Part shown: in pieces, positions 7,329 through 39,596 of the stretch
Numbering within the stretch: the stretch's first letter is position 1
Layout: each line of letters starts with the position of its first letter
From: an uncultured Lachnospiraceae bacterium
Lineage (GTDB): Bacteria > Bacillota > Clostridia > Lachnospirales > Lachnospiraceae
Assembly (NCBI GenBank): GCA_947165025.1
Contig: CAMUYQ010000003.1
Coordinates: 1-54,746, forward strand
DNA length: 54,746 nucleotides
Direction of reading: 5' to 3'
Position numbers and translations under genes: made by a program
The notes under the pieces: model-generated
What the model saw: only the letters and a program-made list of their open reading frames with translations
Told to the model about the DNA's origin: nothing
Databases searched by the model: none

Positions 7329-8810
7329 ATGAAAAATAGGCTGATTTCGCTTTTTCTTACAGCGTTCATGATGATCACTGTGTTGTCGGGATGCCAAAAT
7401 GCATCTTCAGGCACATCGGACACTTCCGCAGATTCTTCGGATAAGGTTGAGATCAATATATATCACTGCACGTTTAACATCGCATCGGCAGATAGCGCAG
7501 AAGTTTCTGCAATCGAAGATGCGATCAATGACTATATCGCAGACAAGATCAACGTCAAAATAAAACTCACGGATTTGGGCCAGGGCGAATATGAAGACAA
7601 ATGCAATCTTGCCATAGCAAACGGCGAAGCGAATCTTTTCTGGACTGCAAGCTGGATGGGTAGCGTGTCCACCGATAACCTTGTATCTGGGAAGGCCGCA
7701 TACGACTTAAGTGAATTACTTCCAGGAACAGATTTATATAATTCCATACCCGAAGCAGTATGGGAGTCTTCCCGATATAATGGAAAGGATTATTTTATTC
7801 CCTGTTATAAGGAGTCATCAGAAGGATATGATCTAGTTTATCCCACGGAAAAAGCGTTGAAATACGGATGGGATCTGTCGTCCGTGAAGAAATTGGAGGA
7901 CCTCGAGCCCATGCTTGAGCAGCTGAAACAGGATGGCGTGAAGTATCCGCTGCTTTTACAGTTGATGCCTTTCTTTAGTAAATTCTACCTTGATGATTAT
8001 GAATTCATCCTGGGAGGTACGATGATCGCTGTTGACCGTGATACCGATGAAGTGGTGGATTGTCTCCCCCTTCCCGAATACAGAGAATTTCTGGACCTTA
8101 TGAGCGGGTGGGGAGAAAAGGGCTACATCAGCGAAGAAGAAGCCACGATGACGGTACCGGAAAATGCGATCAATACCACTGACTGGGGCTTCGCAGCATG
8201 GTGGGACGTGCCGGTCAATGAAGATGCCTCTGTAACCTACGGGCAGGACTGTGATGTCATCCATATGACCAAGAATTATCTCAATTCCTCGAGTACCTTG
8301 GGCTCGTGCTTTGCAGTCTCCTCTGCAAGTACGAAGGAACAGGCAAAGGCCTGTGTGGATTTCATGGGGTTGATGTATACGGATCCGGTACTGGCCGGAT
8401 TATTCACCTTCGGTATCGAGGGAACCGATTATGATATTGAGGATGGTTTTGTTGTCAAAAAAGGCGGACTCTATGATCATAGTTCATGGGAATCAGGATC
8501 GATCGTATCGATTCCTCTCGAGGTGGGTGAGCCTGAAAACAAAGTGGAATTGTATGAGAAATTCAATGAAAACTCCGTGGAAGCTCTTGCGAATGGGTTC
8601 CGGTTTGACTTTACTCCCGTAGAAGCCGAGTGGACAGCGTGTTGCAGCCTCTTTGATCAATATGGTTTTGTACTTGAGCAGGGGGGATGTCCCGCCGCTG
8701 AAGTGGATGCCAGACTGGAAAAATTCCGTTCAGAGCTTGATGCTGCCGGATACCAAAAGGTTTTTGCCGAAGTAGTAAAACAATATGATGCATGGAAAGC
8801 TTCAAAATAA
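7329..8810 (+). CDS. Extracellular solute-binding lipoprotein, LplA-like (DUF3502 type)
   Basis: The 493-residue protein has a lipoprotein signal (hydrophobic FLTAFMMITVLSGC, with the lipid-bearing cysteine at about 21) and a Ser/Thr-rich linker. The body fits a carbohydrate-type binding protein, and the last roughly 70 residues (FTPVEAEWTACCSLFDQY to DAWKASK) resemble the DUF3502 end of LplA. It would bind an oligosaccharide or sugar derivative outside the cell and hand it to the two permeases at 10580 and 11498. Its last codons overlap the MATE-fusion gene by 26 bases. No ATPase is encoded here; members of this importer class usually share an MsmK-like ATPase encoded elsewhere. Confidence 0.85.
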   Translation: MKNRLISLFLTAFMMITVLSGCQNASSGTSDTSADSSDKVEINIYHCTFNIASADSAEVSAIEDAINDYIADKINVKIKLTDLGQGEYEDKCNLAIANGEANLFWTASWMGSVSTDNLVSGKAAYDLSELLPGTDLYNSIPEAVWESSRYNGKDYFIPCYKESSEGYDLVYPTEKALKYGWDLSSVKKLEDLEPMLEQLKQDGVKYPLLLQLMPFFSKFYLDDYEFILGGTMIAVDRDTDEVVDCLPLPEYREFLDLMSGWGEKGYISEEEATMTVPENAINTTDWGFAAWWDVPVNEDASVTYGQDCDVIHMTKNYLNSSSTLGSCFAVSSASTKEQAKACVDFMGLMYTDPVLAGLFTFGIEGTDYDIEDGFVVKKGGLYDHSSWESGSIVSIPLEVGEPENKVELYEKFNENSVEALANGFRFDFTPVEAEWTACCSLFDQYGFVLEQGGCPAAEVDARLEKFRSELDAAGYQKVFAEVVKQYDAWKASK

Positions 8811-10560
8811 CAAAGTACTCAAAAGGCTATTTTTTAAACTGTTGCCGGTACAGATCGTGCTCTTCGGTATGGGCTCCATCAATTCCATCATAGACGGAAC
8901 CATAGCCGGGCATTACATTGATGAGAGAACGGTCGGTGCTATCGGCCTGTTTTATGCGGTGATAACGATCATAGGGGCGATCAGTTCGATAATCCTTAGC
9001 GGCGGATCAGTCATCAGCGGAAATCATATCGGATGCGGGGACATTCAAAAGGCCGGCGGCATCTTTTCCCTATGCATCGTTCTTTCACTTATGTTGGGTG
9101 TGATAACCACGCTGATATGCGTCTGCTTTCCCGGGCCGATTGCCACATTCTGCGGTGCTGATGATTCCTTAAAAGAAAGTGTTGCACAGTATGCAAGGGG
9201 CTACTGTCTCGGATTCATACCCATGTTTTTATCAGAGCAACTCTCGTATTTCCTTCAGGTTGAAAATCAGAGCAGGAGAAGTTATGTCAGTGTTGTTGTC
9301 ACGATCTTCTGCAACATAGCCCTCAATCTTTTCTTTGTTAAAGTACTTGATCTGGGGATCATTGGACTTGCATATGCGACCAGTGCCTGTAATTGGATAT
9401 TCTTCCTGATACTGGTATCCTACTATTTTTCAGATAAAGCACAGTTAAAATTCAGTCTCGGAAGTATTCCCTGGGAAAAGACCATTGACCTGATCAAGAT
9501 AGGAAGCCCCTCCGCTTTGGAGCAGTTGTATTTGGCCGTAAACAGCCTCACGATGAACAGGATCATACTGAAATATGGGGGAGCGCAGGCTCTTTCCGCA
9601 AGGGCTTCCCTGGAAATGCTTGGGGGATTTTTCATCGCAGCACAAGTGGGGTGCGGTGCGGTTGTTAAAACACTCTCCAGTGTCTATATCGGTGAGGAGG
9701 ACAGGGATTCCATCAAATATCTGATGAAGCTGGTACTTACGAAAATCATGGCCCTCACGTTCGCAATCATGATCCTCATGATGCTGTTTTCCCAAACCAT
9801 GGCACTTATCTTCTTCCCGGACAAAACCTCTGACGCATACGTTCTTACCAGGCAGCTGTATGTGATCTATGCGCTGGCCCTTCCCTTGATACTTGTGATT
9901 CAGATACAGTCCAATTATCTGCAGGCAACCCAAAACAACATTGCGGCTCATGTCTCATCTGTGGTGGATGGTTACTTTGCGACGATTATCCCGGCGGTTG
10001 TCCTGGCTCCGGTAATCGGCATCCTCGGTGTATGGTGGGCGGACCCGATCGGGGGTGTGATTACCGCACTGGTTTATCCTATCTATGCCATCATTTATTG
10101 GAAACGTATTCCAAGGAATACCGATGAGTGGCTGTTACTTAGAGACGACTTTGGGGTAAAGGAGGATGACCGGTTGTGTATTGATATAACCGGCATGGAA
10201 GATGTCATAGGGTCTTCTTCGAGAATACAGAGCTTTGTGGAAGAACGTGGATATTCCCACAGGACAGCCTTTTTCTCTGCGCTCGCCCTGGAGGAGATGG
10301 CCGGCAATATTGTTAGCTACGGGTTCGGTGCCGACCGTAAAAAGCATGATATGGATGTAAGGGTCGTCTCAACGAAGAACGGCGTATTACTCAGAATCAA
10401 GGATGATTGCAGAGCGTTTAATCCCGTGGAAATGAATCAGATATTTAATCCCGATGATCCTTCCAAAAACATCGGGATACGCATGATATCAAAAATAGCA
10501 GATGAATTCTCGTATCAGAATACCTTCGGACTGAATGTTCTGACTATCGTGATAAAATAG
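8785..10560 (+). CDS. MATE-family transporter fused to a C-terminal anti-sigma-type ATPase domain
   Basis: Residues 1 to about 455 form a twelve-helix MATE (MOP superfamily) transporter, with MATE-like GSINSIIDGTIAGHYIDE at the start and a second half beginning near residue 230. Residues of about 470-591 form a GHKL ATPase domain of the RsbW/SpoIIAB type: N-box ALEEMAGNIVSYGF (Asn about 508), G1-like IKDDCRAFNP (about 538-547) and G2-like KNIGIRMI. The usual DxG of the G1 box is DDC here, so nucleotide binding may be altered. The gene sits between an importer binding protein and its permeases and overlaps the former, which suggests co-regulation with sugar uptake. Such a domain could sense nucleotide or bind a STAS partner; both are inference. 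Confidence 0.88.
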   Translation: MMHGKLQNNKVLKRLFFKLLPVQIVLFGMGSINSIIDGTIAGHYIDERTVGAIGLFYAVITIIGAISSIILSGGSVISGNHIGCGDIQKAGGIFSLCIVLSLMLGVITTLICVCFPGPIATFCGADDSLKESVAQYARGYCLGFIPMFLSEQLSYFLQVENQSRRSYVSVVVTIFCNIALNLFFVKVLDLGIIGLAYATSACNWIFFLILVSYYFSDKAQLKFSLGSIPWEKTIDLIKIGSPSALEQLYLAVNSLTMNRIILKYGGAQALSARASLEMLGGFFIAAQVGCGAVVKTLSSVYIGEEDRDSIKYLMKLVLTKIMALTFAIMILMMLFSQTMALIFFPDKTSDAYVLTRQLYVIYALALPLILVIQIQSNYLQATQNNIAAHVSSVVDGYFATIIPAVVLAPVIGILGVWWADPIGGVITALVYPIYAIIYWKRIPRNTDEWLLLRDDFGVKEDDRLCIDITGMEDVIGSSSRIQSFVEERGYSHRTAFFSALALEEMAGNIVSYGFGADRKKHDMDVRVVSTKNGVLLRIKDDCRAFNPVEMNQIFNPDDPSKNIGIRMISKIADEFSYQNTFGLNVLTIVIK

Positions 10561-10579: not shown

Positions 10580-11482
10580 TTGAGCTTTATGAAGATACCC
10601 CGGAGATTCCGGGCACTCATCTTAATGGCACTTCCCGGAGTTCTTATCCTTTTCTTTTTTGATTATATGGTGATGGGAGGTTTGGTACTGGCCTTTAAAA
10701 ATTTTGATTACAGGCTGGGGATATGGAGCAGTCCGTGGAGCGGAATTGAAAATTTCAGGTTTCTGATTGCGTCCAGATCCACATTCTTTACCATTACACG
10801 TAATACGCTTATGTATTACGTGATATTTACCGTCACGGGAATGATCCTTGAGATCAGTCTGGCGATTGCGATGGATCAGCTGGTCTTTAAAAGGATCGGG
10901 AAAGTGATGCAGAGCATATTTGTGATCCCGGTATTTATATCATTTACAGCTGTCCAGTTCATTGTTTATGCGTTCTTAAGTACGGACATGGGGATGATCA
11001 ATCATCTGTTTGGCTTATCTGTCAGGTGGTACCTTGAGGCAAAGTACTGGCCGGTGATCCTGACTATCGTAAAACTGTGGAGCGGTACCGGTTATGGGGC
11101 GGTGCTTTTCATGTCAGTCCTTGCGGGGATCGATCCCGGACTGTATGAAGCGGCCCAGATGGATGGGGCGGGAAAGTGGCAGCAGATATGGCACATCACC
11201 CTTCCATTACTGAAGCCTATGGTCACCATAATGCTCCTCTTATCTGTCGGAGGAGTCCTGCACTCGGATACAGGGCTGTTTTATCAGGTAACAAGGAACA
11301 GCGGATCGCTATATGACACCACACAGGTTCTGGATTCGTATATATTAAATGCCGTTTTCCATAACGCTGATTTCGGATTTACGGCGGCAGCATCATTTTT
11401 CCAATCGGTTGTCGGAACTATGCTGATCCTTCTTGCCAACATGGCGGTTCGCCGGATCAATCCTGATGATTCATTGTTTTAG
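10580..11482 (+). CDS. Sugar ABC transporter permease, LplB-like
   Basis: This 300-residue binding-protein-dependent permease has six hydrophobic segments, the first being LILMALPGVLILFFFDYMVMG. The EAA motif of the ATPase-docking loop is visible as YEAAQMDGAGKWQQIWHITLP. It resembles the LplB/YteP group of CUT1 permeases, which pair with LplC/YtcP. A TTG at 10580 is chosen because GGGGGG lies 7 bases upstream, whereas the in-frame ATG at 10589 is 16 bases away. It follows the MATE fusion by 19 bases and precedes its partner permease by 15. Confidence 0.9.
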   Translation: MSFMKIPRRFRALILMALPGVLILFFFDYMVMGGLVLAFKNFDYRLGIWSSPWSGIENFRFLIASRSTFFTITRNTLMYYVIFTVTGMILEISLAIAMDQLVFKRIGKVMQSIFVIPVFISFTAVQFIVYAFLSTDMGMINHLFGLSVRWYLEAKYWPVILTIVKLWSGTGYGAVLFMSVLAGIDPGLYEAAQMDGAGKWQQIWHITLPLLKPMVTIMLLLSVGGVLHSDTGLFYQVTRNSGSLYDTTQVLDSYILNAVFHNADFGFTAAASFFQSVVGTMLILLANMAVRRINPDDSLF

Positions 11483-11497
11483 GCGGTGACAGAATCG

Positions 11498-12394
11498 ATG
11501 CGAAAGAAAAGAAAGATAACAACCGGGGAGATAGTTCTTTTTTTGATATTGCTGATGCTTGCAATCACCACAGCAATCCCTGTCCTGTTTGTCTTTACAA
11601 CTGCATTTACCGATGAGAGTGTCCTTGCGAGTGAGGGATACAGGCTGCTGCCTTCCGCACTGTCGCTGGATGGGTTTCGTGCGGTTTTAAAATATGGGAA
11701 GAAGCTTTTCGTATCATATGGAGTGACTATATTTGTCACGGTAACAGGAACCATATTCGGAATACTTGTTATGAGCATGTATGGATATGTCCTGAGCAGG
11801 AAGGATTTTCCGTTAAGGAAGTTCCTGACGGTATTTCTCATGATTCCTATGCTCTTTAGCGGCGGTCAATTATCAATGTATATCATATTCACATCCCTTT
11901 ACCATATGAAGGATAATATTCTGTTATTGATATTGCCGCAAAGTGTGCAGACCATTTATGTCATTATCCTAAGGACCTATATCACAAGCAGCGTGCCGGG
12001 GGAGTTAATGGACTCTGCCAGAATTGACGGTGCCGGAGAGTATACCACTTTTTTCAGAATTGTATTTCCGCTTATGAAGCCTGCGTTGGCATCCGTCGGA
12101 TTTATGATGGCGACCATGTACTGGAATGACTGGCAGAACGCTCTTCTGTTTATGGATAGTGATAACAAGAAGCCTTTGCAGCTTCTTCTTATCAATATAC
12201 AAAGGAGTATAGAAACACTTTTATCGAACAGAAATATCCCTTCTGCTGCGCTTGCAGCAATGCAGGGAAGGGTTCCGCAGTACTCCGCGACAATGGCGAC
12301 CGTTGTGGTTGTCATTTTGCCTGTTATGATTGCATATCCCTTTTTTCAGAAGTATTTTATTAAGGGGCTGACGATTGGTTCCGTTAAGTATTGA
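11498..12394 (+). CDS. Sugar ABC transporter permease, LplC/YtcP-like
   Basis: The roughly 298-residue protein is the second half of the importer channel. It has a basic N-terminus (RKKRKI), a first helix IVLFLILLMLAITTAIPVLFV, six hydrophobic segments and the docking motif MDSARIDGAGEYTTFFRIVFP. The end TIGSVKY is typical of LplC/YtcP permeases (usually KG(I/V)MVGSVKG-like). ATG 11498 follows AGGCGG; a GTG at 11486 in the same frame lacks a site and would only add four residues. It closes the operon; no terminator is evident after it. Confidence 0.9.
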   Translation: MRKKRKITTGEIVLFLILLMLAITTAIPVLFVFTTAFTDESVLASEGYRLLPSALSLDGFRAVLKYGKKLFVSYGVTIFVTVTGTIFGILVMSMYGYVLSRKDFPLRKFLTVFLMIPMLFSGGQLSMYIIFTSLYHMKDNILLLILPQSVQTIYVIILRTYITSSVPGELMDSARIDGAGEYTTFFRIVFPLMKPALASVGFMMATMYWNDWQNALLFMDSDNKKPLQLLLINIQRSIETLLSNRNIPSAALAAMQGRVPQYSATMATVVVVILPVMIAYPFFQKYFIKGLTIGSVKY

Positions 12395-16094: not shown

Positions 16095-17786
16095 GTGAAA
16101 AGTATCATTGTAGTGGATGTGTTATCAACCGGGTACAATTATATCGAGGACATTGTCCGCAGAGGATATGCGCCCGTAAGTCTGGAATCGAAGGTATTGC
16201 GGCATAGTATCGAGTGCGGTATCGACTCGCCGATCAACCCTGACAGGCTTTTCCATCAGCCTGTAATGTTGAAGGAACAGGATACTTACGAGAAGACCCT
16301 TGAGGAGGTCAGGAAATATGATCCGGTGCTTGTAGTGCCGGGGACTGAATCCGGTGTGGTGCTTGCCACGAAGCTTGCTGCTGATCTGGGACTTCCCGGG
16401 AATCCTGTGGAATACATTAAGGCTATGACTGAAAAACCTGCCATGCACGAAGCGCTGAAGGATGCGGGGCTTCGATATCTTCGAGGGAAAACCGTTTCAA
16501 CTCCCGAAGATGCGGTGGCATTTTGCAGGGAAAACGGATTTGAATGTGCTGTCGTAAAACCGGTCAGGGGTGCGGCCAGTCAGGGACTTTTTTTATGTGA
16601 TGATCTTGATGAGGTCAGGAAGGCAGTATCAACGCTTATGAACATGACAAATGATTTCGGAGATAAGATCTCCGAAGTGCTTGTTCAGGAAAGGATAATC
16701 GGAACGGAATACGTTGTAAATATCCTCTCCCGGAACGGCTTTCATAAGCTCACCACTTTCCTTAAATACAATAAGGTTAAGACAAGTGAAGGCGGATATA
16801 TTTATGACAACACTAAATATATCGGTCAGCTTGAGCCGGGGCACACTGAACTGATCGAATACGCCTTTAAAGTAGCGGATGCTATCCATTATCAGAACGG
16901 GATGATCCACGGTGAATTCATGGTGGATGAAAAAGGACCGATCCTTATTGAGGTTAACTGCAGAGCTATGGGAGGGTCGCTTCCTGCCGCGTTTGCAGAC
17001 CTTATCTCGGGCCAGCATGAAACGGATTCCATTCTGGATGCACTTCTGTACCCGCAGAAGTTCATGAATGAACTGAAAAAACCATACAGGCTGTTAAGAA
17101 ACGGCTGTTCCAAGAGCGTCATCGTTTCGCACGATATGGAGGTTGAAGACAGCCCGGTTTTTGAAGTGGCTAAGCATCTAAGAAGCACTTATCTGATCGA
17201 TGTTGCACAGGTCACCAACCCTGTAATGTTATCAAAGACCAGAGATCTTGAAAGTTCCGGCGGAGAGATCTATTTGGTCAATGATGATAAAGCCGTACTT
17301 GATGAGGATCTGGAAATCCTTACAAATGTTGAAACGAGTTTCTTCCAGTTTATTTTTAATGACGGAATGTCCAGAAGAATGGTACCCAAGAGATCCGGAA
17401 AAGAAAAAAGCCCTAAGGAGATCATGGAGTCGGTGGGGTGCTGCGGTGCCGTTCTTGTTGCATCAGATGAGGAACTTGAAATTGAAGGAGCACAATGTAT
17501 AACAAAAGATACGATGTCGGAAGCTCATAAAGGGTTTGATTTTGTTATTGTAAATTATATGGAATCCTTGCTGGGACTTAAAGAGAGGGAATGTCTGAAA
17601 CTGCTGTTTGACACCTTTGACCTTGCCCGCCAGGGCGGCAGGGTCATAGTTCCAAAGAGTTCATATGATTATATGTCATACGGACGCAGAGGTGTGGAGC
17701 AGCTGATGATAGTCAAAGGACTGACAGTGGAGTTCATTCCTGGCTATGAAAGTGAAATGGTGATTGGAACAAATGACCGGATTTGA
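16095..17786 (+). CDS. ATP-grasp ligase with an extra C-terminal domain
   Basis: The 563-residue protein starts at a GTG behind TTGGAGG. Residues of about 1-100 form the preATP-grasp fold, and about 105-315 the ATP-grasp domain, with KPVRGAASQGLFL as the nucleotide loop, VQERIIGTEYVVN, and the metal-binding pair in HGEFMVDEKGPILIEVNCRA (Glu and Asn). This is the arrangement of the L-amino-acid ligase/BacD-like branch, which joins a carboxylate to an amine using ATP. The last 140 or so residues (ending in SEMVIGTNDRI) look like the second half of a Rossmann/methyltransferase fold without an evident SAM motif. It overlaps the MATE-fusion gene by 14 bases, which suggests that product and exporter are made together. 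Confidence 0.82.
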   Translation: MKSIIVVDVLSTGYNYIEDIVRRGYAPVSLESKVLRHSIECGIDSPINPDRLFHQPVMLKEQDTYEKTLEEVRKYDPVLVVPGTESGVVLATKLAADLGLPGNPVEYIKAMTEKPAMHEALKDAGLRYLRGKTVSTPEDAVAFCRENGFECAVVKPVRGAASQGLFLCDDLDEVRKAVSTLMNMTNDFGDKISEVLVQERIIGTEYVVNILSRNGFHKLTTFLKYNKVKTSEGGYIYDNTKYIGQLEPGHTELIEYAFKVADAIHYQNGMIHGEFMVDEKGPILIEVNCRAMGGSLPAAFADLISGQHETDSILDALLYPQKFMNELKKPYRLLRNGCSKSVIVSHDMEVEDSPVFEVAKHLRSTYLIDVAQVTNPVMLSKTRDLESSGGEIYLVNDDKAVLDEDLEILTNVETSFFQFIFNDGMSRRMVPKRSGKEKSPKEIMESVGCCGAVLVASDEELEIEGAQCITKDTMSEAHKGFDFVIVNYMESLLGLKERECLKLLFDTFDLARQGGRVIVPKSSYDYMSYGRRGVEQLMIVKGLTVEFIPGYESEMVIGTNDRI

Positions 17787-19572
17787 ACGTAAGGGAGTTC
17801 TTGTAAACAGAAAGTTCTATCAGTATCTCGGTCCGACTTTACTTAGTGAACTTGCGATATCACTGAATGAATTTGTGGACGGCATCATCGTTTCACAGCT
17901 TCTTGGCAGTGATGCGATGAGCATGGTGGGGATGGCGTCTCCCGTCATGTATGTTTTTGCAGTGATATATATCATACTTGGAGTTGGCGGTTCCGCAGCC
18001 TACGCTGAGTATTCGGGAATGCAAAAAAAGGAAAAAGCGGACAGGCTGTTTTCGGCTGTATTTGTATCGTCCGTAGTCATTTCCGTATTTATCGCGATAG
18101 CAGGTATTCTCTTTATCCGCCCTCTGGCATCTCTTATGTGCGGTGATCCTGAGCTTCTTCCGGATTTTACCGCTTATCTTGCAGTATTGATCATATCGGG
18201 AGTACTGATCATTCCGCTTCAGGTTCTGATCAACTGTTTTGGCGCTTTCGGTTATCCCCAGATAGGTACAAAACTGAATCTGGCTGCTAATGCCATCAAC
18301 CTCCTTATGGATTACTTGCTCATACACTATTTCAATACCGGAGTGAAGGGCGCAGCAATGGCTACTTTTTTAGGGTATCTTATTGCACTGTTGTGGTTCA
18401 TCATGCTACTTGTTGGAAAGAAAGTGTCTGTTCCGTTTGGAAGGATCAGTTTGAAAGACGTGGTATACGTTCGTCGCGCCGCAGGAAGAGGAGTGGCGAT
18501 GTCCCTGAATCAGTTGGGATACGCCGTCAAGACATTTTTCGGCAACAGTCTGGCTATGGCACTGGCCGGGATCGAAGGAGTGACGATTTTTACTCTTTGT
18601 ATGCAGTCGATTTCCATTATATCCATAGCCATGGGCGGAGTCGTGGAAGCCATGGTGCCTATCGGTGCAGCCCTAAAAGGGCAGAGGGATTTTCGCGGGA
18701 TAAAGATACTGCTCAGGACCGCTCTTACTGCTCAGTTTATCGCATGTCTTATTTGTACCGCGGGAGTAGAGATATATCCGCAGCTTTTCCGTTACATGTA
18801 CAATTATTCAGGGACTGATACAGCGGCGGCCGATCTTGGGATCCGTATTTTTTCACTTGTATTTATCTTCAGGGGATTCGTCCTGATATTTATGTATTAT
18901 TTCCAGATCGTATCCAGAAAGATCTACGCTTCTCTGATCAGTATTTATGACGGCTTTTTGGGTCTGATCCCGATAGCGCTTGTTCTTACAAAATTCTTCG
19001 GGATAGAGGGATTGTGGATGGCATTTCCTGCGGCATCTCTTTCGGAACTTGTGATCATCATCCTGGTAAACCTTTATATCGCGTCGCGTTCCGACGGAAA
19101 GTTCAGTGGAATCCTCCTTGTCGAGACAGAAGACGGGAGCATGCCTGTTTATGATGTGACCGTGAGGCTGAATGAGGAAGATATTTCAGATACCGTACTG
19201 TCCATGCAGAGATTCTGCGAAGATAACAATGTTGATCCGAAGACTGCCGTGATGATGGCGCTGTCTTTGGAGGAAATGATCTCGTACATGCTTGATAACA
19301 GGAAGCAGAGCATATCATGTGATGAGGTGGATATCCTTGCGAAGATCAAGACCGACCATATCATGATGGATATCAGAAGCATGGGGACTCCGCTGGATCC
19401 CACTACAGCACCCGCATCGGACTATTCCAATGTCGAGGTGCTGAAAAAAGTGGCAGAAAAGCTGGAGTATACATATGTGCTCGGTATGAACCAGACCAGG
19501 ATAAGAGTAGGACGGAAGTTTTTACCCGGTCGATCAGGGAGTGGACCCGGATTTCACGATCGGAGATCCTAA
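17773..19572 (+). CDS. Second MATE transporter fused to a degenerate anti-sigma-type ATPase domain
   Basis: About 599 residues with the same layout as the protein at 8785: a twelve-helix MATE part to about residue 455, then an RsbW-like domain. Here the ATPase signatures are worn. The N-box reads LSLEEMISYMLDN without the usual Asn, the G1 aspartate is replaced (IRSMGTPLDP), and no G2 GxG is evident. It is therefore probably not an active ATPase but may still bind a partner. The ATG at 17773 overlaps the ATP-grasp gene; an in-frame TTG at 17764 is the alternative. It is likely the exporter for the ATP-grasp product. The tail GRSGSGPGFHDRRS is unrelated to the domain. Confidence 0.85.
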   Translation: MTGFERKGVLVNRKFYQYLGPTLLSELAISLNEFVDGIIVSQLLGSDAMSMVGMASPVMYVFAVIYIILGVGGSAAYAEYSGMQKKEKADRLFSAVFVSSVVISVFIAIAGILFIRPLASLMCGDPELLPDFTAYLAVLIISGVLIIPLQVLINCFGAFGYPQIGTKLNLAANAINLLMDYLLIHYFNTGVKGAAMATFLGYLIALLWFIMLLVGKKVSVPFGRISLKDVVYVRRAAGRGVAMSLNQLGYAVKTFFGNSLAMALAGIEGVTIFTLCMQSISIISIAMGGVVEAMVPIGAALKGQRDFRGIKILLRTALTAQFIACLICTAGVEIYPQLFRYMYNYSGTDTAAADLGIRIFSLVFIFRGFVLIFMYYFQIVSRKIYASLISIYDGFLGLIPIALVLTKFFGIEGLWMAFPAASLSELVIIILVNLYIASRSDGKFSGILLVETEDGSMPVYDVTVRLNEEDISDTVLSMQRFCEDNNVDPKTAVMMALSLEEMISYMLDNRKQSISCDEVDILAKIKTDHIMMDIRSMGTPLDPTTAPASDYSNVEVLKKVAEKLEYTYVLGMNQTRIRVGRKFLPGRSGSGPGFHDRRS

Positions 19573-36560: not shown

Positions 36561-36860
36561 ATGTTAAACATTGAAAAGAAGATCGACGGCAATGCTATGG
36601 AAGTGGCTCTTTCGGGAAGACTTGATACAACGACCGCTCCCCAGCTTGAGGAAGTTGTCAAAGCCGAGCTTACCGGAAAGGATTCACTCGTGTTTGATCT
36701 TGCGCAGCTTGAGTACATAAGCAGTGCCGGCCTTCGTGTGCTTCTCTCAGCTCAGAAGATCATGAACAACCAGGGAAGTATGGTCGTTAAGAACGTTTCC
36801 GAAGAGGTTAACGAGATCTTCGAGGTTACCGGATTTGCTGACATTCTTACGATTGAATAA
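36561..36860 (+). CDS. STAS-domain anti-sigma factor antagonist
   Basis: The 99-residue protein is a single STAS domain of the SpoIIAA/RsbV type. The phosphorylation site is in LEYISSAGLRVLLSA (the first Ser after Ile). Such antagonists switch partners with an RsbW-type kinase: the unphosphorylated form binds it. The start is the ATG at 36561, 8 bases after AAAGGAG. It opens a cluster with two ATPases and a PP2C phosphatase, the full set for a partner-switching circuit. Confidence 0.93.
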   Translation: MLNIEKKIDGNAMEVALSGRLDTTTAPQLEEVVKAELTGKDSLVFDLAQLEYISSAGLRVLLSAQKIMNNQGSMVVKNVSEEVNEIFEVTGFADILTIE

Positions 36861-36872
36861 TGAGGACGTATA

Positions 36873-37505
36873 ATGAACAGATCAGGCGAATTGTACGTTA
36901 ATAACACCGAGGAGAACGCTGCTGCCGCTCTTACAAAGATCGACGAGTTCATCGGACACCAGAAGATCGACCGCAAGAAGATGATCCATTTAAGACTTCT
37001 TGCCGAGGAGACCATCGGTATGGTCAAGGCCATGACGGATGATTTTATGGCACTTATGTGGATCGAGGAAGAGAACGGGGATTACCGTATCAGGCTTACG
37101 GTCAAGACCGACATGAACAAGGAGAAGAAGAGTGAGCTTCTCTCTGTTGCCACGTCGGGAAAGAACGCAGCTGCAAAAGGCTTCATGGGCAAGATAAGTG
37201 AGATCATCGAAAACGGTCTGCTCAACTACGATAACGTCATGAAGCTGCAGGAAGAATACGGCGGCGGATATAACGATTACATGGGAATGGGAATGTGCGT
37301 TCCGGGTGAGGTGCAGATGACGGGTGATCCGCTCGTCTGGTCACTTTCCAAGTACAGGTCCGCACTCAAAGGCAACAGCGAGCTGATGAACGGTAACGGT
37401 TCAGCCTGGGATGAACTTGAGAAATCAATAGTTGCATCGCTTGCAAAGGATGTAACGGTCGGTGTTAAGAAGGACCGCGTTGACATGGCCATTCTCGCAC
37501 GCTGA
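36873..37505 (+). CDS. Anti-sigma ATPase-like protein with an unusual C-terminus
   Basis: The 210-residue protein starts like an RsbW-type ATPase, with an N-box-like segment LLAEETIGMVKAMTDDFM in which the usual Asn is replaced by Lys. No G1 (DxGxG) or G2 box follows, so it probably does not bind ATP in the standard way. Its last 90 residues (GGGYNDYMGMGMCVPG, SLSKYRSALKGNSELM) are unlike other proteins I know. It lies 12 bases after the STAS gene and 23 before a complete RsbW-like gene, so it is a second, atypical partner in the same circuit. Confidence 0.65.
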   Translation: MNRSGELYVNNTEENAAAALTKIDEFIGHQKIDRKKMIHLRLLAEETIGMVKAMTDDFMALMWIEEENGDYRIRLTVKTDMNKEKKSELLSVATSGKNAAAKGFMGKISEIIENGLLNYDNVMKLQEEYGGGYNDYMGMGMCVPGEVQMTGDPLVWSLSKYRSALKGNSELMNGNGSAWDELEKSIVASLAKDVTVGVKKDRVDMAILAR

Positions 37506-37528: not shown

Positions 37529-37951
37529 ATGAGTGATAATAATATTCGTGAACTGAATACGGAAGCTGTTACGGATAATCTCCAGAAGGTACTTGAGTTT
37601 GTCGACGAAGCACTTTGCGAGGCGGGATTTTCGATCAAAGCGCAGATGCAGATCGATGTTGCCGTCGAGGAGATATTTGTCAACATAGCAAGCTATGCAT
37701 ACGGACCGGAAGGCGGGAATGCGAAGGTTACAGTTGAGAAGCTTTCTGATCCCGTCGGTGTTGCGATCACTTTTTATGATAACGGCACACCTTACGATCC
37801 TCTCAAAAAAGAGGATCCGGATGTAACACTTTCGGCGGGGGAGCGTCAGATAGGGGGACTTGGGATTTTCATGACCAAGAAGCTGATGGACAGTGTCGAT
37901 TACGAGTACAGGGAGAACATGAACATACTTCGGCTTGTCAAGAACCTTTAA
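37529..37951 (+). CDS. RsbW/SpoIIAB-like serine kinase (anti-sigma type)
   Basis: The 140-residue protein has all GHKL ATPase boxes: N-box VAVEEIFVNIASYAY (Asn present), G1 FYDNGTPYDPL (Asp present) and G2 GGLGIFMTKK. RsbW-like kinases phosphorylate a STAS partner and bind a target, classically a sigma factor. The partner is presumably the STAS protein at 36561. No sigma factor is encoded nearby, so the target could be another protein. It sits between the atypical ATPase and the PP2C phosphatase. Confidence 0.9.
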   Translation: MSDNNIRELNTEAVTDNLQKVLEFVDEALCEAGFSIKAQMQIDVAVEEIFVNIASYAYGPEGGNAKVTVEKLSDPVGVAITFYDNGTPYDPLKKEDPDVTLSAGERQIGGLGIFMTKKLMDSVDYEYRENMNILRLVKNL

Positions 37952-37964
37952 GGGGAGAGGATAG

Positions 37965-39596
37965 ATGGCGAGAAAGATCGATAAGCTCAGAACCAGCATG
38001 ACATTCAATATGGTCGGTGCCGTTGTCATGCTGCTCGCAGTTTTCGGCGTCATTGTCAGTGTCATCGGTTTTATCAGCTTTACAAGTGCTTTCAAGAGAG
38101 AGTATTCGACTACCACGTATCATATGGCGAATACTGCTGCAACTCTCGTTCACGGCGACAGCCTGGACGATTATCTTGAAGGCGGCAAACAGGATGAATA
38201 CAGCAGAACAAGATCATATCTTGACGCTTATTGCAAGGCGATGAGCGTTTCGATAGTATATGTTATCAAAGTGGATACGAGCGACTACGGGAGCTTCGTA
38301 TCTGTTTTTAATTGTGTGAACAATTCGGTCGATGATACCGATTACGAACCGTGGGAGCTCGGACATAAGCGGGACACCACGAATGAGACATACAGGAAAA
38401 AATACAAAGCGATCTACAGTAAAGAGTCGCCGTATGAGACGATATACCGTACGAAGCCCGGAGAAGGACTGCATCCGCATGTCACGACTCTGGTGCCTGT
38501 TATGGATTCTGATGATAATGTTGCCGGGATACTCTGCCTTCAGAGACCGACGCGTGAGATTAATAACGCAAGGCTTCCGTTCCTTACAAACATAGCGATA
38601 TCAACAGCGCTGCTCGCACTGCTTTTTGGGGTCTTTGTCACGCTTTATCTTCGGGGTCAGTTCGTCCTTCCGATCAGAAAGGTCTCATTGGAGGCCATAC
38701 GTTTCGCGAAGGATAACAAAAAAGGCGAAGAACTCACATCTGATATCAGCAGGATAGCTGAGATATCAGGCCTTGCCTTGTCGATAGATAAGATGGAATC
38801 AGAGATGATCTCCTATATTGACAACCTCACATCGGTAACCGCAGAGAAGGAGAGGATAAGCACTGAACTTTCACTGGCAAGCCGGATACAGGAAAACTCT
38901 GTACCGAACATCTTTCCGGCATTTCCCGACAGGAATGATTTTGACATTTACGCATCAATGAAGCCGGCCAAGGAAGTCGGCGGCGATTTCTATAATTTCT
39001 TTTTTGTCGATGATGATCATCTGGCGGTCGCTATCGGGGATGTATCCGGGAAAGGTATTCCTGCTGCGCTCTTCATGATGGTTACCAACATCCTTCTGTC
39101 CGACAGGGCGAAAATGGGTGGCAGACCTTCGGAGATACTGGAGTATGTTAACGACAATCTGTGTGAGCATAACACCGCTGATATGTTTGTGACGATCTGG
39201 CTCGGGATACTGGAGATTTCAACCGGAAAGCTGACAACCGCAAATGCGGGACATGAAGACCCTGCGGTATACAGAAAGGGCGGATCGTTTGAACTGGTAA
39301 AGACAAAGCACGGATTTGTCGCAGGCGGTATGGCCGATGTCACATATACGGATCATGAGATCACGCTGAACGAAGGCGACAAGTTGTTCATATACACGGA
39401 CGGTATTCCAGAGGCAACCGATGCGAATGAAAGCCTGTACGGACTTGAGAGAATGACGGAGGCGCTCTGCAGCGTGGAAGACAGGTCATGTATGGAGATA
39501 GTTGAAGGCGTGAGACGGAGCGTTGATGTATTTGTCGGTGATGCACCGCAGTTTGATGATCTTACAATGCTGTGCCTTGAGATCGGGAAAAGATAA
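37965..39596 (+). CDS. Membrane PP2C/SpoIIE-type phosphatase with sensor domain
   Basis: The 543-residue protein has an N-terminal helix (MVGAVVMLLAVFGVIVSVIGFI), an outside sensor of about 160 residues, a second helix near 205-225 (FLTNIAISTALLALLFGVFV), a HAMP-like linker to about 300, and a SpoIIE/RsbU phosphatase domain. Metal-binding motifs are EVGGDFYNFFFVD, IGDVSGKGIPAALFM and GDKLFIYTDGI. It would dephosphorylate the STAS protein in response to an external signal and thus feed the switch. Spacing is 13 bases from the kinase gene. Confidence 0.92.
   Translation: MARKIDKLRTSMTFNMVGAVVMLLAVFGVIVSVIGFISFTSAFKREYSTTTYHMANTAATLVHGDSLDDYLEGGKQDEYSRTRSYLDAYCKAMSVSIVYVIKVDTSDYGSFVSVFNCVNNSVDDTDYEPWELGHKRDTTNETYRKKYKAIYSKESPYETIYRTKPGEGLHPHVTTLVPVMDSDDNVAGILCLQRPTREINNARLPFLTNIAISTALLALLFGVFVTLYLRGQFVLPIRKVSLEAIRFAKDNKKGEELTSDISRIAEISGLALSIDKMESEMISYIDNLTSVTAEKERISTELSLASRIQENSVPNIFPAFPDRNDFDIYASMKPAKEVGGDFYNFFFVDDDHLAVAIGDVSGKGIPAALFMMVTNILLSDRAKMGGRPSEILEYVNDNLCEHNTADMFVTIWLGILEISTGKLTTANAGHEDPAVYRKGGSFELVKTKHGFVAGGMADVTYTDHEITLNEGDKLFIYTDGIPEATDANESLYGLERMTEALCSVEDRSCMEIVEGVRRSVDVFVGDAPQFDDLTMLCLEIGKR

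Follow-up and report, generated by a model that had tools for sequence, protein, structure and literature searches.

What is a GHKL domain of the RsbW/SpoIIAB type doing at the end of a membrane transporter? The question is raised by a 54,746-nucleotide stretch of DNA from an uncultured Lachnospiraceae bacterium (GCA_947165025.1, contig CAMUYQ010000003.1), called the window below, in which a single gene, here named 8785 after its first position, encodes a MATE transporter followed by such a domain. The best-known role of partner switches, in which a STAS protein is acted upon by an RsbW-type kinase and a PP2C phosphatase, is the regulation of sigma factors. The answer favoured here, to which we give slightly better than an even chance, is that the GHKL domain would be a docking site, through which a STAS/RsbW/PP2C partner switch would control transport directly, without a sigma factor. 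The two features at the heart of the question are:

8785..10560, plus strand: MATE-GHKL fusion of 591 residues (open frame, Pfam, AlphaFold model, Foldseek, alignment to solved MATEs)
10225..10551, plus strand: RsbW/SpoIIAB-type GHKL domain, residues 481-589 of the 8785 protein (Pfam, profile alignment)

One uninterrupted frame of 591 residues spans 8785-10560, and both domains stand above their Pfam cut-offs: MatE at E 2.4e-24 (86.3 bits against 24.9), and HATPase_c_2, at residues 481-589, at E 7.7e-10 (39.3 bits against 27.4). This bears out an initial annotation, made from the letters and their open reading frames, which had seen MATE and GHKL in one protein with the Asn of the N-box kept (Asn508). 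The fusion is in frame in close relatives (L010 and L011 at a rounded 100% identity, L014 at 87%, L012 at 78%, L013 at 73%). For the GHKL part the ratio of nonsynonymous to synonymous substitution rates (dN/dS) comes to 0.116 against L012, 0.128 against L013 and 0.172 against L014, with 0.149, 0.131 and 0.214 for the MATE part, which points to purifying selection on the GHKL part. Since the relatives keep the fusion in frame and dN/dS is low, a sequencing or assembly error joining two genes, the case that the initial annotation had raised against itself, is excluded. How widespread the architecture is had been left there as a check: confirmed fusions occur in at least 42 of 299 genomes of the same family, judged from named relatives to be Lachnospiraceae, and in 6 genomes outside the family in a 398-genome sample of the phylum, one of the genome screens having scored three candidates per genome. 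In a plasmid collection 37 records match the fusion, none of them over more than 80% of the query. That the domains came together by chance and the GHKL part has no role can hardly be believed, contradicted as it is by this conservation and by the signs of purifying selection.

Is the transporter half a transporter? The AlphaFold model has a mean predicted local distance difference test (pLDDT) score of 82.4, with 57-90 per block across the GHKL domain, and residues 463-590 run strand-helix-helix-strand-strand-helix-helix-strand-strand, a secondary structure that fits GHKL. When the full model is compared with the PDB by Foldseek, the best 50 of 397 matches are all MATE, MurJ or WzxE, so that the GHKL fold draws no confirmation from this comparison; 6hfb and 3vvs rank at the top, and a TM-score of 0.83 on the target (6hfb_C) indicates a MATE fold. 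By profile, the nearest solved structures are DinF-BH and the 3vvn MATE, which we take to be PfMATE, and Asp37 in the first transmembrane helix (TM1) aligns with residue 40 of the former and residue 41 of the latter. The TM1 Asp of MATE proteins has a role in proton coupling. The protein does not pass NCBIfam TIGR00797 (120.9 bits against a cut-off of 147.4); by its sequence affinities it is placed in the DinF-like branch of MATE. Given the aligned Asp and the solved MATEs as nearest matches, the core looks like that of a working exporter, as far as alignment and model can predict.

The other half has its closest kin among the kinases of partner switches. When 26 fused domains are combined in a profile, six PDB sequences match it at E up to 0.01, namely SpoIIAB (1tid, 1th8, 1til, 1l0o), RsbW (6m36) and SenB (9qih), and the window's own free RsbW (37529, listed below) does so with a probability of 97.3; among solved structures SpoIIAB and RsbW are nearest by sequence. 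No NCBIfam RsbW model matches the 8785 fusion at E 0.001, and the free RsbW matches below the cut-off. The N-box at 8785 reads EEMAGN, its Glu504 aligning with residue 46 of SpoIIAB and its Asn508 with residue 50; E46 of SpoIIAB has a catalytic role. The Gly of NIG is present, and the G1 box reads DDC in place of DxG, Cys replacing Gly. Across 92 MATE fusions the N-box Glu is found in 92 and the Asn in 57, so that 35 are without it, while the G1 Asp is kept in 76 and the Gly in 43 (10 of 12 in free RsbW). Both Glu and Asn are kept in 12/12 free RsbW and in 17/17 PP2C-fused GHKL domains; the Asn is lost in all five GHKL domains fused to ABC ATPases and in both scored domains fused to SDF symporters. 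A Glu always kept despite the loss of Asn would fit a domain that still meets the Ser of a STAS protein and no longer needs ATP. Could the domain instead bind ATP and energise the MATE core, or gate it by energy state? The ATP-binding motifs are largely kept at 8785, but 35 of the 92 relatives have lost the Asn, and the clustering with STAS and PP2C genes described below would go unexplained, which makes this very unlikely. The initial annotation had suggested a tie to nucleotide state; such a coupling is doubtful as a general rule because of the same 35 losses.

How often did such fusions arise? The 92 MATE fusions need three label changes on a tree of 133 GHKL domains, at least two of them forced by well-supported branches, and three on a MATE tree of 121 rows, all three forced; these small numbers argue for few origins, with secondary gains or losses. 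The profile of MATE-fused GHKL domains also picks up five amino-acid ABC ATPases at their C-terminus (L016, L206, L250, L251, L252; E 1.4e-17 to 8.1e-8) and, in the full set, two SDF symporters at their N-terminus (E 1.2e-7 and 2.2e-5). Five SDF proteins carry an N-terminal extension; in a five-sequence set the profile matches four of them (L017, L219, L252, L259), and L207 is recognised by alignment only. On the GHKL tree the five ABC-GHKL domains make up a clade of their own, as do the two SDF-GHKL domains. Gut and rumen bacteria are thus seen to join a domain of this kind, again and again, to small-molecule exporters and in some cases to importers of amino acids. Among the matches listed from the open-licence literature of PubMed Central, no title or abstract opening deals with MATE-GHKL fusions or transporter-fused RsbW.

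Other architectures occur as well. An 884-residue MATE-GHKL protein (L196:8015-10666) has an extra C-terminal region, HD-like by eye. A GHKL-GNAT acetyltransferase is found at L253:7890-9395 (by Pfam) and in L254 (by length and profile only), with N-box Glu and Asn kept and the G1 Asp replaced by Glu.

If the GHKL domain is a dock, what would dock there? A complete set of candidates lies in the window, with STAS, RsbW and PP2C in one same-strand run:

36561..36860, plus strand: STAS protein of 99 residues, with a YISSAGLR site holding a phosphorylatable Ser (profile, alignment)
36873..37505, plus strand: 210-residue protein encoded between the STAS and RsbW genes; neither Pfam nor NCBIfam gives a convincing match (Pfam, NCBIfam, hhalign)
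37529..37951, plus strand: free RsbW-type kinase of 140 residues (profile match to the fused GHKL, probability 97.3)
37965..39596, plus strand: SpoIIE-type PP2C phosphatase (profile, NCBIfam)

The Ser site is kept in 42 of 44 STAS domains. The protein at 36873-37505 was considered as a further GHKL domain, which is not proven: its N-terminal part is alike by eye only, and hhalign gives a probability of 12. Besides this set the genome encodes another SpoIIE-type phosphatase (C5) and a protein of STAS-APH-like build (C4:171473); of its three STAS matches, one is a contig-edge fragment with a stop. No SigB/F/G exceeds the TIGR02980 cut-off in the genome, the best match reaching 134.8 of 234.35 bits, and a classical sigma output is therefore not evident. 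By eye, the two best matches read as RpoD, whose gene has a DnaG fragment next to it, and as FliA, which has CheC/CheD-like genes for neighbours. As for possible targets, the genome carries four MATE-GHKL proteins (8785, 17764, C7:134158, C3:190567) and one GHKL-SDF symporter. The second of these also lies in the window, next to an overlapping ligase gene:

16095..17786, plus strand: ATP-grasp ligase, overlapping the second fusion gene (Pfam)
17764..19572, plus strand: second MATE-GHKL fusion, 602 residues, N-box Asn replaced by Tyr (MATE by profile; GHKL by profile)

The GHKL region of this protein is degenerate and unseen by Pfam; a profile built without its sequence matches it at E 6.0e-10. 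It was absent from the initial annotation, and the ATP-grasp/MATE-GHKL pair recurs in L220, of the same genus.

A link between fusions and switch genes shows in the neighbourhoods of the relatives. Within 8 kb of the 92 fusions there is a STAS gene in 25 cases, a PP2C gene in 32, another, non-MATE GHKL gene in 18 and any of the three in 43; at 20 plain-MATE control loci the counts are 0 for STAS, 2 for PP2C and 0 for other GHKL (Fisher p 0.006 for STAS, 0.032 for PP2C, 0.0022 for any switch gene). Nonribosomal peptide synthetase (NRPS) genes lie near 16 fusions and no control (p 0.071), and AMP-binding genes near 23/92 and 3/20 (p 0.4), neither difference being significant. The 92 proteins are good matches to the GHKL profile, a non-random set that includes close relatives, and these probabilities are therefore overstated; some loci were chosen for a nearby RsbW-type match and a later batch for other architectures, and the controls are hand-picked, high-scoring plain MATEs. 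Densities tell the same story. The 49 fusion genomes (146.8 Mb) hold 177 STAS, 186 SpoIIE and 20 strong GH3 matches, from which 1.95 STAS, 2.05 SpoIIE/PP2C and 0.22 GH3 would be expected near the fusions, against 25, 32 and 9 observed; these figures ignore relatedness, and 6 of the 92 proteins lie outside the 49 genomes. Same-strand runs around the 92 fusions contain STAS or PP2C in 31 cases, an activating-enzyme label in 30 and both in 18, with AMP-binding in 1 and STAS or PP2C in none of the 20 control runs. STAS, MATE-GHKL and PP2C stand together in L079, L081, L083, L206, L219 and L228, among others, and L206 assembles in one stretch STAS, ABC-GHKL, MATE-GHKL, GH3, PP2C, a second MATE-GHKL, a PaaK-like enzyme and NRPS. 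Genes were called by a simple longest-frame scheme that loses some (the fusion in L095, an RsbW in L085), and neighbours were labelled from local profiles, with Pfam run on 21 proteins. By these labels the GH3 count (13) and the enzyme count (41/92) are too high, since those of L215 and L231 for GH3 are partial cross-matches; the Pfam count, 9 of the 20 strong GH3 ligase genes of the 49 genomes within 8 kb of a MATE-GHKL gene, is used instead. The STAS partner that the initial annotation had suggested for the fusion thus gains support from its many relatives near STAS, RsbW and PP2C genes.

What we infer, namely STAS docking, gating, which way the effect runs and what is transported, would work as follows. 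The C-terminal GHKL domain would be a retained STAS-binding module of the RsbW/SpoIIAB type. The RsbW kinase and the PP2C phosphatase would set the phosphorylation state of the STAS protein, one of whose two forms would bind the transporter at its GHKL domain and alter its activity, so that the output would be transport rather than transcription. A domain that has lost the N-box Asn would bind STAS and not phosphorylate it; one that keeps the Asn, as at 8785, may phosphorylate STAS too. In the present genome one switch (STAS 36561, RsbW 37529, PP2C 37965) would act in trans on the four MATE-GHKL proteins and the GHKL-SDF symporter.

The kept Asn invites the reverse reading, in which the fusion is a transceptor: the MATE core would sense its substrate, and the GHKL domain, as a membrane-bound RsbW, would phosphorylate or sequester a STAS protein that acts elsewhere. 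Both N-box residues, Glu and Asn, persist at 8785 and in 57/92 fusions, and in L086, L215 and L221 a STAS gene lies within 8 kb of an Asn-keeping MATE-GHKL with no other GHKL gene called in the stretch, so that the fusion could be the kinase there. Yet a free RsbW can escape the gene calls, as in L085, where a longer frame masks it, and the G1 Gly is Cys at 8785. Nor can a kinase role be general, because the Asn is lost in 35/92 MATE fusions, 5/5 ABC-GHKL and 2/2 scored SDF-GHKL. This explanation is accordingly rated rather unlikely.

Several observations also weigh against direct control of transport through a GHKL dock. Within 8 kb of the 8785 gene lies no STAS or PP2C gene, and no GHKL gene other than the second fusion; the nearest STAS is 26 kb away, the fusion and the switch genes belonging to separate operons that far apart. 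Among the 92 fusions, 29 have no counted switch or enzyme gene within 8 kb. STAS and SpoIIE domains are present in 49/49 fusion genomes, and the presence of STAS alone does not discriminate, because SulP transporters contain STAS domains as well. The switch could still have FliA or an unlisted sigma factor for its target. The ABC- and SDF-fused domains are below the Pfam cut-off or unlisted (ABC tested in L016 and L206). The usual mode of transport may not hold for some relatives, since the TM1 Asp is kept in 78/92 fusions, replaced by another residue in 10 and unaligned in 4, as against 20/20 kept in plain MATEs. Finally, loss of the N-box Asn is commoner beside PP2C (22/32 against 13/60, uncorrected p 1.4e-5), with a raw p of 0.0021 for a nearby RsbW; the Asn state changes just seven times on the tree, independent pairs are uninformative, and the association with PP2C is inseparable from shared ancestry. 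The idea that Asn loss follows from a nearby PP2C or RsbW was dropped as unsupported once ancestry is allowed for.

Does the pairing reach beyond exporters? A broader proposal, offered tentatively and held to be somewhat less than an even chance, is that STAS-GHKL serves as a general plug-and-socket wiring for entire metabolic routes. One half of it would be carried or adjoined by amino-acid importers (SDF, ABC), by activating enzymes (NRPS, GH3, ATP-grasp, AMP-binding) and by MATE exporters, and a single phosphatase-kinase switch would turn on import, conjugation and export together without a sigma factor. The same plug and socket could also act as a physical channel, holding synthesis enzymes (NRPS, GH3, ATP-grasp) next to an exporter that would receive their product straight from them. 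Fusions of STAS with condensation domains (L243 by Pfam, L244 by local profile), of STAS with AMP-binding (L232) and of AMP-binding followed by a GHKL-like domain (L261, GHKL below the Pfam cut-off) lend themselves to this, as does the proximity of GH3 genes, 9 of 20 where 0.22 were expected. However, these enzyme fusions amount to four proteins, AMP-binding genes alone are not enriched, and the operon of 8785 itself has no synthesis enzyme; such a channel seems improbable.

Beside these enzymes stands another STAS architecture, a STAS domain followed by an APH-like phosphotransferase (about 390-400 residues), seen at L288:1474-2673 (the C4:171473 protein of this genome), in L203 and in L226, by Pfam for L203 and by eye for the others. 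Eight such proteins of 370-410 residues were counted by length, with APH found by Pfam for L203 only. The genes of L203 and L226 adjoin MATE-GHKL genes.

What, then, of the operon in which 8785 lies? Its other genes are:

7329..8810, plus strand: LplA/LipO-like solute-binding protein, SBP_bac_8 plus DUF3502 (Pfam)
10580..11482, plus strand: ABC importer permease 1, BPD_transp_1 (Pfam)
11486..12394, plus strand: ABC importer permease 2, BPD_transp_1 (Pfam)

With its DUF3502 binding protein and two permeases, the operon is, by sequence family, an LplABC-type importer, and Pfam agrees with the initial annotation in placing the fusion between binding protein and permeases. Within 8 kb of 8785 only ABC genes, the ATP-grasp gene and the second fusion occur. 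The order binding protein, MATE-GHKL, permease, permease recurs in L011, L012, L013, L014 and L019, and the L010 contig starts after the binding protein gene. The 26-base overlap with the first gene, also reported at the outset, is real and local: it stems from a 59-nt deletion (window 8806-8810, L011:6004) common to the window and L011, which cost the fusion gene its start and also removed the spacer, L012, L013 and L014 having 59 extra nt there. A tie to sugar uptake had been proposed as well and did not hold up as a general theme, since the importer order is confined to one orthologous group (window, L010-L014, L019) and 12/92 fusions, against 0/20 controls (p 0.12), have BPD permease genes within 8 kb. 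For 8785 itself, whose operon would import a solute through the LplABC-like system, a swap of imported solute for exported product is possible.

Known systems offer partial parallels. RsbV/RsbW/RsbU and SpoIIAA/SpoIIAB/SpoIIE have the same three protein types, the GHKL domain being nearest SpoIIAB/RsbW and the Ser site of STAS kept; unlike them, the present genome has no SigB/F/G over the cut-off, and GHKL is fused to transporters. The MATE structure of ClbM (4z3n) is among the matches of the 8785 protein by Foldseek and profile. ClbM is an exporter that reportedly has a role in the colibactin pathway, a likeness in that a MATE transporter is tied to peptide synthetases; we know of no GHKL domain in it. 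In the SiaABCD system of Pseudomonas aeruginosa, the kinase SiaB and the phosphatase SiaA set the state of SiaC, which acts directly on the enzyme SiaD (PMC8457831). This is a precedent for a partner switch acting directly on an enzyme, with the difference that SiaC is a DUF1987 protein and its target a diguanylate cyclase rather than a transporter (PMC8457831). SulP/SLC26 transporters carry a STAS domain (PMC8256260) and so resemble the present fusions in joining a transporter to one half of the STAS-GHKL pair; here the transporters carry the GHKL half instead, in three unrelated transporter families. A Vibrio STAS protein is presented without evidence of a sigma target (PMC4517449).

If the GHKL domain is indeed a dock for STAS, one phosphorylation event would control many membrane transporters at once. 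Several orphan partner switches have, to our knowledge, no known target, and such docking would give them a direct and testable output. The clusters also hint at amino-acid conjugates, so far unstudied, as products that the bacteria carrying them may synthesise and export.

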